A stretch of 60,822 nucleotides of DNA from Myxococcaceae bacterium (lineage in GTDB: Bacteria > Myxococcota > Myxococcia > Myxococcales > Myxococcaceae). Each line of letters begins with the position of its first letter. Positions within the stretch are counted from its first letter, which is position 1. Of the stretch, positions 8,114 through 18,458 are shown one piece after another. A model generated the notes under the pieces. It ran no database searches. It saw only the letters and a list, made by a program, of their open reading frames with translations, and was not told the origin of the DNA. A program made the position numbers and the translations under genes. Location: the NCBI GenBank assembly GCA_019686135.1, contig JADGHL010000014.1, positions 1 to 60,822 of the forward strand. Reading direction: 5' to 3'.

Positions 8114-9367
8114 TCAGATCCGCGACAGCCGCGCGGTCCGCTGCAGGCGCTCGAAGCCGGTCTTCACCAGCTCCGACTTCACCGCGGGGTGCTTCGCCAT
8201 CAGGCGATCGAAGTCCGCCCGCGACAGGCGCAGCAGCGTGCACTTCGTCTTCGCCCGCACCGACGCGGAGACGTCCTTGCGCAAGAGGAGCGAAATCTCC
8301 CCGAACACGTCACCCTCGCGCATCGGCGGATAGGGCTTCTCGGTCCCGTCCTCGTTCGGATGGAACGCGGTGCACTCGCCGCGGAGCAGCACGTAGAGCG
8401 CTTCGCCCGGCGCGCCGTGGGTGAGCAACATCTCTCCCGCCTCCGCGGTGCGCATCTCGAACGCCTTCGCCAGCTCCTCCCGCGCGGATTCCGGGAGCGC
8501 GGCGAACAGCGGGTTCGACCGGAGCACGTTGGCGAGCAGCCGCTCCCGGTAGAACGCGTTCATCACCTCTTCCACGCCGGGGTGGCGGGCGATGATCTCC
8601 TGCATCTTCTCGCGCGTGAACTCGAGCACCACGCACTTCGCTGCGGCGGTCACGCTGGCCAGGCGCGGCGCGTCGGTGATGAGGGCAATCTCCCCGAACA
8701 CGTCGCCCTCTTTCATCTGCGCCACCGCCTTGCGCCCGCCGCCCTCCTGATGGCGCAGCACGTCCACCACGCCCTCGACGATCGCGTACATCGAGGTGCC
8801 CACCTCACCCTCGCGGACGATGTCCTCGCCCGGCTCGAAGGTGCGGACCTCCATCCCCTCCAGCACGGCGATGAACTCGTCGCGCTTGAGCGAGGAGAAC
8901 AGCGGCACGGACGGCAAGCCGCCCGCGGCGGTGGGCTTCGGAAGCTCGACCTCGATCTCCAGCTCGATCTCCGGCGCCGCGGCAGCGGGTGCGGGCGCGG
9001 CCGGAGCGGCGGTGAGCGGCTGCGCCGCCGGCGCCTGGGCGAGGCCCTGCTTCTGCGCATAGAGTTCGGCCAGCATCGCCTGGGTGCTGGAGTGCTTCGG
9101 GTCGAGCGACAGCACGACCTTGCACGCGGCGATCGCCCTGAGCAGGTGTCCACCCTGCGCGAGCAGCCGGCTCAGCGTCGACCACGCCTTCACCGCCGCG
9201 GCGGTGCGGCCGGTCCGCTGCAAAAGCTCGGCGACCTTCTGCCGGACCGCGAGATCGCCCGGCGCGAGCGCCTCGGCCTTCTGGTAGGCCTCGAGCGCGG
9301 CGTCGTGTTTTCCCTTCGCAAAGAGCTGCGCCCCTTTGTCCTTCAGCTCCCGGACTGCGTCGGCCAT
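8114..9367 (-). CDS. TPR protein with two cyclic-nucleotide-binding domains
   Basis: 417 residues, cytoplasmic. The N-terminal ~105 residues are helical TPR repeats (FAKGKHDAALEAYQKAEALA), then an Ala/Pro linker and an acidic strand, then two Crp-like cNMP-binding domains. In the first the phosphate-binding cassette is complete (DVFGEIALITDAPRLASV); in the second the key Arg is lost (DVFGEISLL...KDVSASV). There is no DNA-binding domain, so it is likely an adaptor or effector that changes partner binding on cAMP or cGMP. It follows the gene ending at 9386 by 18 bp, same strand, and probably shares its transcript. Start at ATG 9367; no strong ribosome site seen. Confidence 0.88.
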   Translation of the reverse strand: MADAVRELKDKGAQLFAKGKHDAALEAYQKAEALAPGDLAVRQKVAELLQRTGRTAAAVKAWSTLSRLLAQGGHLLRAIAACKVVLSLDPKHSSTQAMLAELYAQKQGLAQAPAAQPLTAAPAAPAPAAAAPEIELEIEVELPKPTAAGGLPSVPLFSSLKRDEFIAVLEGMEVRTFEPGEDIVREGEVGTSMYAIVEGVVDVLRHQEGGGRKAVAQMKEGDVFGEIALITDAPRLASVTAAAKCVVLEFTREKMQEIIARHPGVEEVMNAFYRERLLANVLRSNPLFAALPESAREELAKAFEMRTAEAGEMLLTHGAPGEALYVLLRGECTAFHPNEDGTEKPYPPMREGDVFGEISLLLRKDVSASVRAKTKCTLLRLSRADFDRLMAKHPAVKSELVKTGFERLQRTARLSRI

Positions 9368-9385
9368 CGTGTGCGGCTCCGCTCC

Positions 9386-10645
9386 CTACGCGCTGAGCGC
9401 ACGCACGCGCTCGGCCAGAGACGCTGCGAACAGGCGCCATACCTTGAGCGCAGAGGCCTGGTGGGTGTCGAGGAAGCTCTGGAAGTGGTCACGCGAGATC
9501 CGCAGCGCCTCCACCTGGGTCTTCGTCTTCACGTGCGCGGAGGCGGGCTGGTCCTGCAGGAGAGAAATCTCCCCGAGGTACGCGCCGGGCCCGAGCGTGT
9601 TGAGCAGCCGGGCGTCGGGGTCGGGGCCGCTGTAGACCTCCACCTCGCCGCGCAAAAGAACCACCAGCCCATCGTTGCGCGCGCCCTTGTGGATGAGCGT
9701 CACGCCCGCGGGCGCGGAGATCCGCCGGGCGAGCCGGAAGAGGTCCTTCATGTCCGGCAGCCCGAGCTCGGCGAAGAGCGGAATCGCCTTCAGGTAGCCG
9801 TAGCCGTCGCTGGGCGCGGCGTTCTGGGGCGCGGGCGCGGTGGCCACCGGCGCGGCGGCGGATTGCACCTGGCCCTGCAGCATCTTGAGCGCGCGTTCGG
9901 CGTCCTCCGGGCGGCCGCATCGGCGCAGAAGCCGCACGACCTCCGACTGGCAGGCGAAGTCCGCGCGCAGCTTCGTCGATGCCTTCATCTCCGCGCCGAG
10001 CAGCGCCAGTGCCTTCTTCGGGTGGCCGGCCTCATCGAGCAGCTCGCACGCGCGCAGCACCGCGTCGCGCCGCTGCGGATCGCTCGCGGGGACCGCGAGG
10101 AGCTGTTCGAGTTCCGCGTGCGTGTTGCCGAGCGCGCGGTAGGCCTTCGCCGCTTCCATCGGCCGCCCGAGGTGCGCGAGGCACCGCGCCTCCGACTCCC
10201 GGTTCCCGGCCTTGCGGTACAGCTCGAGCGCCTCCTCCGCCCGGCCCAGCCGCTCGAGCGCCGCACCCGCGCGCTGGATGTCGCCCGCCTTCACCCACAG
10301 CGCCGGCGCGCGCTCGAACTGATCGGCCTTCTCCCAGAGCGCCGCCGCGTCCGCCCACGCGCCGAGGTTCTCGGAGAGCTCTGCGGCGGCGGCGAAGTCA
10401 CGCGCACGCTTGAAGACCTCCACCAGCGCGCGACGGGTGGCCACCGAGGAGACCTTCGCCTCCTGCAGGAGCTCGTGCCGCCGGGTGTGCGCCGAGTCCT
10501 CGTACATCCTCGTGGCGGCATCGATGTCTCCGCGCGCAGCAAGTCTGGCCACCTGCTGGAAGCCATTGCCGCCCGAGGCGACGAACTGTCCGCCTGAGTC
10601 GTCTTCGATGAACTCGAACTCCACCGCAAATTCGGCCAAAGGCAT
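9386..10645 (-). CDS. TPR-like protein with C-terminal cyclic-nucleotide-binding domain
   Basis: 419 residues. A long helical solenoid (repeats such as LGAWADAAALWEKADQFERA and LGRAEEALELYRKAGNRESE) is followed by one cNMP-binding domain in which FGE is LGE and the cassette Arg is Ala (LGEISLLQDQPASAHV), so ligand binding is uncertain. The start MPLAEFAVEF at 10645 was chosen because GGAGG stands just before it; the frame is open to 10735, but that would overlap the divergent kinase promoter. First gene of a two-gene unit with 8114-9367, and a partial paralogue of it. Confidence 0.85.
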   Translation of the reverse strand: MPLAEFAVEFEFIEDDSGGQFVASGGNGFQQVARLAARGDIDAATRMYEDSAHTRRHELLQEAKVSSVATRRALVEVFKRARDFAAAAELSENLGAWADAAALWEKADQFERAPALWVKAGDIQRAGAALERLGRAEEALELYRKAGNRESEARCLAHLGRPMEAAKAYRALGNTHAELEQLLAVPASDPQRRDAVLRACELLDEAGHPKKALALLGAEMKASTKLRADFACQSEVVRLLRRCGRPEDAERALKMLQGQVQSAAAPVATAPAPQNAAPSDGYGYLKAIPLFAELGLPDMKDLFRLARRISAPAGVTLIHKGARNDGLVVLLRGEVEVYSGPDPDARLLNTLGPGAYLGEISLLQDQPASAHVKTKTQVEALRISRDHFQSFLDTHQASALKVWRLFAASLAERVRALSA

Positions 10646-10737
10646 TTCCTCCGTGGGCGCGTGACGACGGACCCGAGATATTTGGAGCGCGGAAGCTATC
10701 ATTCGCCGCCCCGGCGAACAGCGGGAGGGAGGCACGG
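10646..10737. promoter_or_regulatory. Divergent promoter region of the cNMP-protein operon and the kinase gene
   Basis: 92 bp between two outward-pointing starts. The right end has GGGAGGGAGG 5-7 nt before the kinase ATG; the left end has GGAGG just before the minus-strand ATG. An AT-rich patch (ATATTTGG, 10678-10685) lies between. No operator palindrome was recognised. Confidence 0.5.
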
Positions 10738-12249
<1,512 letters not shown>

Positions 12250-12319
12250 GAACCGCCCGCACGGAACTTCTCCCCGAGCGTCCGGGATGAGATCCTCCCG
12301 CGCCATTCAGGAGCTGCCT

Positions 12320-14617
<2,298 letters not shown>

Positions 14618-14643: not shown

Positions 14644-15018
14644 ATGATTCAGATCAAACGGACCTATGACCCGCCCGCGCGCAGCGACGGCCGACGATTC
14701 TTGGTGGAGCGGCTCTGGCCGCGCGGAGTGAAGAAGGAGGCGCTGGCGATGGACGGTTGGGCGAAGGAGGTGGCGCCCAGCACGGAGCTCCGCAAGTGGT
14801 TCGGCCACCGCCCGGAGCGCTGGGAGGAGTTCCGCCGCCGCTACCGCGCGGAGCTGGACGCGAACCCGGACGCGTGGACGCCCCTGCTGGAGGACGCCCG
14901 CCGCGGGACGCTCACCCTGCTCTACAGCGCGCGCGACGAGGCCCACAACGGCGCACTGGTCCTGCGCGACTATCTCTCGGAACGGCTGAAGTCCGGCTCC
15001 CGGGCAAAAAAACGCTGA
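14644..15018 (+). CDS. DUF488 family protein
   Basis: 124 residues. Family pattern: IQIKRTYDPP near the start, RFLVERLWPRGVKKEALAMD, then WFGHRPERWEEFRRRY and LLYSARDEAHNGALVLRDYL. DUF488 proteins are small and soluble; their role is unproven, with a proposed link to nucleic-acid or stress functions. The start ATG 14644 has GGGAGG 6 nt upstream. It lies 26 bp after the hybrid kinase and is probably co-transcribed, but the two functions need not be linked. Confidence 0.9.
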   Translation: MIQIKRTYDPPARSDGRRFLVERLWPRGVKKEALAMDGWAKEVAPSTELRKWFGHRPERWEEFRRRYRAELDANPDAWTPLLEDARRGTLTLLYSARDEAHNGALVLRDYLSERLKSGSRAKKR

Positions 15019-15078: not shown

Positions 15079-15456
15079 ATGCCCAAGGTCCTGCTGGTCG
15101 AAGACAATGAGATGAATCGCGACATGCTCTCCCGCCGGTTGATCCGCCGCGGCTTCGAGGTGGAGTTGGCGGTCGACGGTCAGGAGGGCGTGGACAAAGC
15201 CAACACCGCGAACGCGGACATCATCCTGCTCGACCTCAGCCTGCCCATCATCGACGGCTGGGAGGTGGCGCGGCGGATCCGCCAAAACCCTGCGCTGAAT
15301 CAAACGCCGATCCTCGCGCTCACCGCGCACGCGCTCAACGAAGACCGCGACAAGGCGCTGGAGGCCGGCTGCGACGACTACGACACCAAGCCGGTCGAGC
15401 TGCCGCGGCTGTTGGAGAAAATCGAGGCGCTATTGGCGAAGAAACGGAGCGCGTAG
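15079..15456 (+). CDS. Single-domain response regulator (DivK/CheY-like)
   Basis: 125 residues, one receiver domain only. Acidic pocket VEDNEMN, phospho-acceptor Asp52 (LLDLSLPIIDGWEVARRIR), switch Thr in LTAHALNEDRD, Lys in DTKPVELP. It has no output domain, so it must act by binding another protein or passing on phosphate. It sits between the hybrid kinase and the cyclase that carries its own HisKA-like and receiver domains, which are the natural candidates for partners. Confidence 0.93.
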   Translation: MPKVLLVEDNEMNRDMLSRRLIRRGFEVELAVDGQEGVDKANTANADIILLDLSLPIIDGWEVARRIRQNPALNQTPILALTAHALNEDRDKALEAGCDDYDTKPVELPRLLEKIEALLAKKRSA

Positions 15457-15472: not shown

Positions 15473-17242
15473 TCAACGCAACAGTTCGGCGATCCGCGCG
15501 CGCGCGCCGGCCGGCACGGACGTGAAGCGCACCAGCCAGCCTCGGTCTTCCGGCTGCTTCACCTTGGCGTAGACGTCGTCCTCGAGCACCGAGCCGTCTT
15601 TCCCGGTGAGCCGCAGCCGCACGTCGTCGAACGGCTTGAGCCCCAGCGCCGCGCGCAGCACGCCGCCCTTCTCGCCCACGCGGAGCAGCTCGCCGGGCAC
15701 CTCCTCCTCCGAGAGAAGCTTCCCCGCCACCGGCGTCAGGCGGATCGGCAAGGGCGCGGGGAGTGACCGGAGCGCATCCTCTTCGCGGGTGACGAAGAGG
15801 TTCGCATCCCGCAGCCCGAGTATCTCCCGCACCTCCACCGGATCGGCGAAGCCTTTGGCGTTGAACGTCGTGCCGGGCCCGGTCACCACGTCGGGGCCGG
15901 CGCGTTCCACGGTGGCGGTGGTGGCGAGGATCTGCCCGCCGACGCCGAAGGACTCCACGCGCGCGGTGAGGTTCACGTGCCGCCCGACCACGCCGTACTT
16001 GGAGCGCTTCATGCTGCCGATGTTCCCGACGATGACCTCGCCGGTGTTCAGCGCGATGCCCATCTCCAGCCCGGGCAGCCCGCGCTCGGCGAGCTGGGCG
16101 TTGAGGGTCCCCATCGCCTGCTGCATCGAGATGGCGCAGGCCACGGCGCGGCGGGCGTCGTCCTCGCGGCGCAGCGGCGCGCCGAACAGGACGAGGATGG
16201 CGTCGCCGATGAACTCGATGATGGTCCCCTGATGACGGTCAATCACCTCGACCATCACGCCGAGGTACTCGTTGAGCAGCCGCATCACCTCGTCCGGCTC
16301 GAGCCGGTCGGCCGCCGAAGTGAACCCCCGCAGATCCGACATGAGGATGGTGACCTCGCGCCGCGTACCGCCCAGGCTGAGGCCTTCTGGCGTCTCCAAC
16401 AGCGCCTGCACCACGTCCTCGCTCATGAAGCGGCCGAACGCGGACCGGATGAGCCGGTTGCGCGCGTCGAGATCCTGCGCGAGCCGTTCGATCTCCTCCC
16501 GCGCCCGCTTGAGCTCGAGCTGGGTCCTAATCCGCGCGAGCACCACGGGGAGATCCAGCGGCTTGGTGACGTAGTCATTGGCGCCGAGCTGCAGCGCCTT
16601 GACCACGTCGTCGCTGCGGTCGAGCGCGGTGGCCATCACGACCGGGAGCTCGGCGGCGGAGCGCTGCGCGCGGATCTGCTCCAGCACCTCCAGCCCGCTG
16701 ATCCCCGGCATCATCACGTCCAGCAGCACCAGGTCGAAGCGTGTGGATTCGATGAGCCTCAGCGCCTCGGATCCGGAGTGGGTCACCGTGACCTGGAAGG
16801 CGCGGCGTTCGAGCTGCCGCGAGAGGAAGTCGACGTTGCGCGGCTGGTCGTCCACCACCAGCACGTGCCGCCCGGCGCCGAAGTCGGCCGGCAGGCTGCG
16901 CACCGCGGCCGCGCCCTCCTCGGTGCCGGTGATGTCGCGGATGGCGGTCGGCGGTGCGCCGGGATGGGCCGAGGGTTCGTGTGCCGCGTCGTCGAACGAA
17001 GCGAGCGGCTTGACCGCGTCCGCGGCGAAGAGCTGCTCAATCAATTCCAGCAGCGTGCGCGCAGCGGCGGTGATCCGCTGGAGGTCCGGCAGAAGCCGCT
17101 CCTGACCGAGGTCGGTGACCTCCTCCTGGAGCAGCTCGCTGTAGCCGATGATCTGGTTGAGCGGCGTGCGCAGCTCGTGGCGCAGCTTGCGGCGTCCCGG
17201 CAGCGGCGCGGGTGCTCCGCCGCCTTCAGGCGGGGTGGACAT
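15473..17242 (-). CDS. HisKA-like / receiver / class III nucleotide cyclase protein
   Basis: 589 residues, cytoplasmic. Residues 15-70 resemble a HisKA dimerisation helix pair ([19 protein letters not shown], His22) but no ATPase domain follows. A receiver occupies about 125-245 (Asp175, LLDVMMPGISG). A coiled coil leads to a class III cyclase at about 290-470, with metal Asp303 (MSDLRGFT) and Asp347 (EFIGDAILVLFG) and VNLTAR. The residue that usually sets purine choice (Asp in GDxVN) is Arg here (GRHVN), so ATP or GTP use cannot be read off. The last ~90 residues resemble a degenerate PilZ domain. Likely makes cAMP or cGMP under phosphorelay control. Confidence 0.9.
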   Translation of the reverse strand: MSTPPEGGGAPAPLPGRRKLRHELRTPLNQIIGYSELLQEEVTDLGQERLLPDLQRITAAARTLLELIEQLFAADAVKPLASFDDAAHEPSAHPGAPPTAIRDITGTEEGAAAVRSLPADFGAGRHVLVVDDQPRNVDFLSRQLERRAFQVTVTHSGSEALRLIESTRFDLVLLDVMMPGISGLEVLEQIRAQRSAAELPVVMATALDRSDDVVKALQLGANDYVTKPLDLPVVLARIRTQLELKRAREEIERLAQDLDARNRLIRSAFGRFMSEDVVQALLETPEGLSLGGTRREVTILMSDLRGFTSAADRLEPDEVMRLLNEYLGVMVEVIDRHQGTIIEFIGDAILVLFGAPLRREDDARRAVACAISMQQAMGTLNAQLAERGLPGLEMGIALNTGEVIVGNIGSMKRSKYGVVGRHVNLTARVESFGVGGQILATTATVERAGPDVVTGPGTTFNAKGFADPVEVREILGLRDANLFVTREEDALRSLPAPLPIRLTPVAGKLLSEEEVPGELLRVGEKGGVLRAALGLKPFDDVRLRLTGKDGSVLEDDVYAKVKQPEDRGWLVRFTSVPAGARARIAELLR

Positions 17243-17318: not shown

Positions 17319-18458
17319 TCAACCCGACGCCGGACCCTCCCCGCGGGCCTCCACCGTGCAGGTGCCGCCGACGACCCGGTACCAGACCGTGTCCGCGCTC
17401 GCCGCCTTCTCCACCAGCGCCGCGTCCGTCGTGGTGAGGAACGTCTGCGCGCCGGAGGCGGCGAGATAGTCCATCAGGTAGGCGTTGCGCTCCGGATCCA
17501 GCTCGCTGGAGACGTCGTCCAATAGCAGCAGCGGAAGAAAGCCGAGCGCCGCGTGGAGGTTTTCGATCTCCGCGATCTTCCACCCGAGGATGAGCGCGCG
17601 CTGCTGGCCCTGGGAGGCATACGTCCTCGCCAACCGCTCGCCGAGGCGGATCTCCAGGTCATCCGCATGCGGCCCTACCGAGGTGAAGCCGCGCTCGAGA
17701 TCGCGCGCCCGCCGCCGCACCAGCGCCTCGTGGAGCGCCCGGGCCAGCGCCGGCTCAGCGGCGGACTGAAAGTCCACGTCGTCGAGGTGCGCCGGCGCAT
17801 AGGTGTACGCCGCCGGATCGACCGTGCGGCCGATGGCGGCGAACGCGGCCACCGCGCGCGGAGCCAGCTCCGTCAGCAGCGCCCGCCGGCGTGTCCACAG
17901 CCGCGCGCCGGTCTGCGACAACGTCACGTCCCAGCTCTCCAGGTAGTCGGGCGCGACGTGGTCCTTCAGCAACCGGTTGCGGCCCTTGAGCGCGCGGCCG
18001 TAGGCGCGGCTCTCGCGCAGGTACGCCGGGAAGCGGTTGAACACCGCGCGGTCGAGGAACTGCCGGCGGCCTTCGGGACCGCCCTTCACCACGTCGAGAT
18101 CGTCCGGCGTGAACGCCACCACCGCCACGCCGCCGAAGTACTCCTCTAGGGACGACGCGCGCTTGCCATCGACGTACGCCTGGCGCAGCCCGCCGGAGAC
18201 TTCCACGGCGATCTCCCGCTCCGCGCCGCCGAGGAGGAACGTCCCCGCGACCCGCGCGCGCTCGGCGCCGAAGCGGACGAGCTCCTGCAACCGGGACGCG
18301 CGCAGCGGCTTGAGCGTCACCAGGAAGAACAGCCCCTCGAGCAGGTTGGTCTTCCCCTGCCCGTTCTGGCCCACGGCGATCGTCGCGTGCTCGGAGGGCG
18401 CGAGCTCCACGTCGGCGAGGTTGCGGAAGTCGCTGTAGCGCAGGCGCAGGAGTCGCAC
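17319..18458 (-). CDS. recF: DNA replication and repair protein RecF
   Basis: 379 residues, an SMC-like ABC ATPase that loads RecA at single-strand gaps with RecO and RecR. Walker A GQNGQGKT (residues 30-37), ABC signature region YASQGQQRALILGWKIAE, Walker B LPLLLLDDVSSELD; the N-terminal LRLRYSDFRNL is typical. Length is normal. In many bacteria recF follows dnaN directly; here it comes 35 bp after a lipoprotein gene, and dnaN is 7 kb upstream on the same strand. The next gene (cyclase, 17242) is 76 bp downstream. Confidence 0.96.
   Translation of the reverse strand: MRLLRLRYSDFRNLADVELAPSEHATIAVGQNGQGKTNLLEGLFFLVTLKPLRASRLQELVRFGAERARVAGTFLLGGAEREIAVEVSGGLRQAYVDGKRASSLEEYFGGVAVVAFTPDDLDVVKGGPEGRRQFLDRAVFNRFPAYLRESRAYGRALKGRNRLLKDHVAPDYLESWDVTLSQTGARLWTRRRALLTELAPRAVAAFAAIGRTVDPAAYTYAPAHLDDVDFQSAAEPALARALHEALVRRRARDLERGFTSVGPHADDLEIRLGERLARTYASQGQQRALILGWKIAEIENLHAALGFLPLLLLDDVSSELDPERNAYLMDYLAASGAQTFLTTTDAALVEKAASADTVWYRVVGGTCTVEARGEGPASG

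Follow-up and report, generated by a model that had tools for sequence, protein, structure and literature searches.

A predicted Cya2-type guanylyl cyclase with an orphan HisKA segment, a receiver and a PilZ-like tail in a Myxococcaceae bacterium

To our knowledge, few bacterial guanylyl cyclases have been established. Cyclases that are driven by a receiver and by histidine kinase parts in one chain are represented by the CyaC-type adenylyl cyclases of cyanobacteria, which contain a full kinase with an ATPase domain and residues of the ATP type. A HisKA-type helical dimer that carries a His but has no working kinase is found in the Spo0B-like phosphotransferases. The Synechocystis guanylyl cyclase Cya2 (2w01; phytochrome chimera 6fht) is preceded by a CHASE2/transmembrane input. 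The substrate preference of Cya2 lies in turnover and not in affinity, and a Tyr residue has been reported to favour its guanylyl cyclase (GC) activity. Moreover, the E488K replacement converts Cya2 to an adenylyl cyclase (PMC5995499), and the pattern described for guanylyl cyclases consists of a Glu at the ATP-selecting Lys site and a variable second residue (PMC4215837). The 2018 optogenetics study also revealed that a C-terminal extension of 118 residues strongly raises the activity of Cya2 and is needed for full activity; the extension was structurally uncharacterised (PMC5995499). In a literature search, neither a later characterisation of this extension nor a pairing of PilZ with Cya2 was found.

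Here, we describe a related protein encoded in a window of 60,822 nucleotides, the whole stretch of DNA that was analysed. The minus-strand gene (15473-17242, ATG at 17242, stop codon at 15473-15475) specifies 589 amino acids (P0001), in which a HisKA segment, a receiver (REC), a class III cyclase and a PilZ-like tail follow one another. The cyclase could be aligned with Cya2 over residues 264-487, and the two proteins share the Glu at the Lys site, a non-Asp residue at the second site and the same type of C-terminal extension. However, HisKA-REC takes the place of the Cya2 input. Taken together, the protein is probably a Cya2-type guanylyl cyclase under phosphorelay control that ends in a non-canonical PilZ tail, and its product would be read by neighbouring cNMP-binding proteins.

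Domain order and the HisKA-REC input

Only four codons separate the ATG from a preceding in-frame stop codon, and thus no sensor domain is missing from the N-terminus; the protein has neither a sensor nor a membrane part. A recF-like ORF (17319-18458) precedes the cyclase gene on the same strand, with 76 bases between its end and the start of the cyclase, and cotranscription of the two genes is possible. A Pfam scan identified a HisKA domain (residues 20-71, 17030..17185, minus strand; 5e-10, over the cut-off), a receiver (residues 127-238, 16529..16864, minus strand; 5e-30) and a Guanylate_cyc domain (residues 295-446; 4e-25). The scan detected no HATPase domain, so the protein is not a histidine kinase, and no Hpt domain (PF01627) was present among the matches up to E 1. 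The missing ATPase domain and the GC-type residue set the protein apart from CyaC. The initial annotation had proposed an orphan HisKA segment with a phospho-acceptor His, followed by a receiver, a cyclase and a degenerate PilZ-like end; the Pfam results and the analysis of the tail agree with this order.

The HisKA segment belongs to the HisKA/DHp family (PF00512) by its Pfam score, by His22 in the H-box RHELRTP and by its two-helix hairpin. In the full-chain AlphaFold model, the helices comprise residues 17-45, which include His22, and 48-76. This model was built from only three sequences; its HisKA and receiver parts are usable, its cyclase part is poor, and contacts between the domains were not read from it. 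The receiver (PF00072) has all of the expected residues (D131, D132, D175, T205 and K227). Among seven aligned HisKA-REC proteins, His22, Thr26 and Asp175 are invariant and the acidic residue following His22 is also kept, although most of the segment varies. His22, the acidic residue and Thr26 recur in an eighth HisKA-REC protein, which was read separately. The seven proteins include one in L055 whose output is a Ser/Thr kinase and not a cyclase, and HisKA-REC is thus a reusable input unit. The L055 gene (L055:144-2519) adjoins an HPt-less hybrid kinase. One genome, G156, encodes a second HisKA-REC protein (L229:1456-2880) with a different C-terminal part, which is ended by the edge of the locus.

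Searching for the same domain order uncovered HisKA-REC-cyclase proteins in seven genomes (the window's, G056, G156, G195, G378, G423 and G366), which belong to the window's phylum and to the Acidobacteriota, and the His is kept in all of them. The tail was seen in five of the seven, the other two genes being incomplete: that of G156 is ended by a contig edge at the cyclase start and that of G366 is cut before the tail. Judged from these sequences, the HisKA-REC-cyclase-tail architecture is real and conserved. The scan of genome contigs matched mostly via receiver motifs and yielded few full relatives, and no relative of the protein was found among viral contigs.

Cyclase domain and predicted substrate

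The cyclase domain (residues ~267-476, 15815..16444, minus strand) belongs to the class III nucleotidyl cyclases (PF00211). The catalytic set is complete: the metal-binding residues Asp303 and Asp347 as well as the transition-state residues Asn424 and Arg428 are invariant in an alignment of 43 relatives that includes the window protein. The nearest solved structures by sequence are the Cya2 constructs 2w01 (E 2e-61) and 6fht (E 8e-70).

It had been noted from the sequence that the usual Asp of the GD-x-VN motif, regarded as the purine-selecting residue, is replaced by Arg, here Arg421 (KYGVVGRHVN). The replacement is real, but the site is not the telling one. Across the same 43 proteins, it is occupied by Ser (24), Ala (6), Arg (4), Asn (4), His (2), Thr, Pro or Gly (1 each); homologues with the ordinary Asp were looked for, and there were none. 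By this alignment, position 421 is freely variable in the tail family, and the telling residue, which had been missed, is Glu343 at the ATP-selecting Lys site, the purine determinant that is better documented. Of the 43 tail-family cyclases, 41 have a Glu at this site, while it is absent from all 19 tail-less homologues (7 of them from the window's genome), which mostly have a Lys paired with an Asp. The two remaining tail-family cyclases carry Asp or Lys at this site, and therefore the clade is not wholly of the GC type. They are cyanobacterial, tail-bearing natural variants (L160:1504-2511, Asp; L162:1453-2466, Lys).

The substrate, ATP or GTP, had been called unclear. Because of Glu343, the E488K switch at the equivalent site of Cya2 and the described guanylyl pattern, we predict that GTP is the likelier substrate. 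Two residues argue against a guanylyl cyclase of the Cya2 type: the second site is Arg421 in the window protein and Ala in Cya2 (in the alignment used), and Ala427 occupies the position of the Cya2 Tyr. The loss of the Tyr and the fact that Cya2 discriminates by turnover leave room for a dual enzyme. An adenylyl or dual cyclase, in which Arg421 or other residues override Glu343, would also suit the observation that one of the four proteins with Arg at position 421 has Lys at position 343. However, Glu343, the clade shared with Cya2 and the effect of a single residue in Cya2 all speak for GTP, and we consider an adenylyl or dual cyclase unlikely.

A PilZ-like tail shared with Cya2

A segment matching residues 485-589 (15476..15790, minus strand) recurs in the tail-family relatives, with the end of the L143 protein being cut off. 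Single tails are poor matches to PilZ (PF07238): 16 of 42 gave a match (best 1.4e-6), the window tail alone stayed below the threshold (E 0.085), and only that of L160 exceeded the Pfam cut-off when ten tails were checked individually. A comparison of profiles by hhalign was clearer. The tail profile scored 38.0 against the 22 PilZ domains of the window's genome, while 60 column shuffles did not exceed 13.6 and the reversed alignment scored 16.9. When modelled alone (pLDDT 86.8), the tail formed six strands and a C-terminal helix, as in the PilZ barrel. PilZ structures were at the top of a Foldseek search with this model, and a second aligner gave Z scores of 10-12 to many of them. A sequence search of the PDB with the tail profile gave no match, and a pattern search was precluded by the variability of the tail alignment. 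By profile and model, the tail has the PilZ fold and PilZ descent, and the suspected degenerate PilZ-like end was thus borne out both as a fold and as homology.

The PilZ motifs had been described as poor, and indeed RxxxR and [D/N]xSxxG are absent from all 42 tails, which places them outside the canonical c-di-GMP-binding PilZ domains. A link to c-di-GMP, which had been considered possible, is therefore unlikely by the known motifs. The fold would be in line with a tail that binds c-di-GMP and couples two messengers. However, the homology to PilZ begins only after the RxxxR region, and the invariant residues of the tail, the Lys of a GK pair and a Tyr-x-Lys (YxK) motif, lie away from the motif positions. 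Binding of c-di-GMP by the tail is thus very improbable.

The tail can be equated with the extension of Cya2 because the L158 protein, which is nearly identical to Cya2, carries the same domain. A tree of the cyclases groups those of the tail family in a single clade (support 100/99), with members from Cyanobacteria, Acidobacteriota, one Syntrophobacteraceae genome and Myxococcota-like relatives of the window. HisKA-REC, REC-only and other inputs are intermixed inside this clade, and thus the input domains were exchanged during its history, whereas the cyclase kept its tail.

Candidate phosphodonor, possible readers of the product and rival explanations

Two plus-strand neighbours of the cyclase gene may be its partners. 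A single-domain response regulator (15079..15456; REC 4e-26) is convergent with the cyclase gene, and a relative adjoins the cyclase in G056, G011 and G423. The second gene (12287..14617, with a start codon chosen in this analysis) encodes a membrane hybrid histidine kinase with the order HisKA-HATPase-REC-REC and no HPt domain, a candidate phosphodonor. Between both genes lies a small ORF (14644-15018) that is DUF488-like by the look of its sequence. HPt-less kinases of the same domain order are found at five loci (the window gene, G056, G156, G011 and L055), and most HisKA-REC-cyclase genes adjoin such a kinase and/or a single-domain regulator. The neighbouring genes suit a relay from the kinase via a receiver and His22 to Asp175. 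Against this speaks that hybrid kinases lacking an HPt domain are generally common.

It had been left open whether the HisKA part acts as an Hpt-like site or only as a dimer interface. An Hpt-like phosphotransfer site is favoured because His and Thr are invariant and because of the partner genes; like the Spo0B-like proteins, the segment has a His and no working kinase and could relay phosphate, but it is fused to a presumed receiver and a cyclase, and the relay is putative. Alternatively, the helices might only hold the dimer together and the kinase might pass phosphate straight to the receiver. Class III cyclases act as dimers, and in G011 the HisKA segment is absent from a relative (P0003, L046) that has the REC-cyclase-tail order and, next to it, a regulator and a hybrid kinase. 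Thus, the HisKA part is not indispensable to the module and direct phosphotransfer to the receiver is possible. However, a mere dimer interface does not fit well with the conservation of His22, the next acidic residue and Thr26 in all eight HisKA-REC proteins, and we regard this alternative as rather doubtful. According to the preferred phosphorelay model, the hybrid kinase, probably that of 12287-14617, would supply phosphate that reaches Asp175 via His22 or directly. Phosphorylation of the receiver may then alter the geometry of the linker helix (~231-269) and switch the cyclase dimer. The tail would pack on the linker or on the cyclase and support activity like the Cya2 extension, without binding c-di-GMP, and the cGMP formed might be read by the neighbouring cNMP-binding proteins.

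These proteins are encoded by three consecutive genes (8114-12249): a TPR protein with two cNMP-binding domains (8114..9367, minus strand), a protein with a C-terminal cNMP-binding domain that lacks the Arg of the phosphate-binding cassette (9386..10735, minus strand) and a Ser/Thr kinase with a cNMP-binding domain (10738..12249, plus strand). This Arg is present in only some of the domains. The genome of 5.5 Mb has 23 matches to cNMP-binding domains, of which four are at the cyclase locus. TPR proteins with similarity to cNMP domains, relatives of the one in the window, are encoded less than about 5 kb from the cyclase in G056 and G378; none was found there in G423. A role of the three proteins as readers of the cyclase product is suggestive only. 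The kinase, a candidate target of the product, carries in its cNMP-binding domain a 16-residue RTAT motif, which resembles that of the eukaryotic cGMP-dependent kinase (PKG). It was also considered as a conserved partner of the cyclase and rejected as such, its one close relative (in G011) being located elsewhere in that genome. It is quite unlikely that the locus encodes a complete bacterial cGMP pathway, with a hybrid kinase, a relay via the orphan HisKA segment, a PilZ-tailed guanylyl cyclase, cNMP effectors and a bacterial counterpart of PKG.

The protein adds a candidate bacterial guanylyl cyclase with a putative phosphorelay input, and Glu343 together with the PilZ-fold tail provides sequence markers for the whole cyclase clade. 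Moreover, with a predicted fold assigned to the C-terminal extension of Cya2, its role is directly testable.
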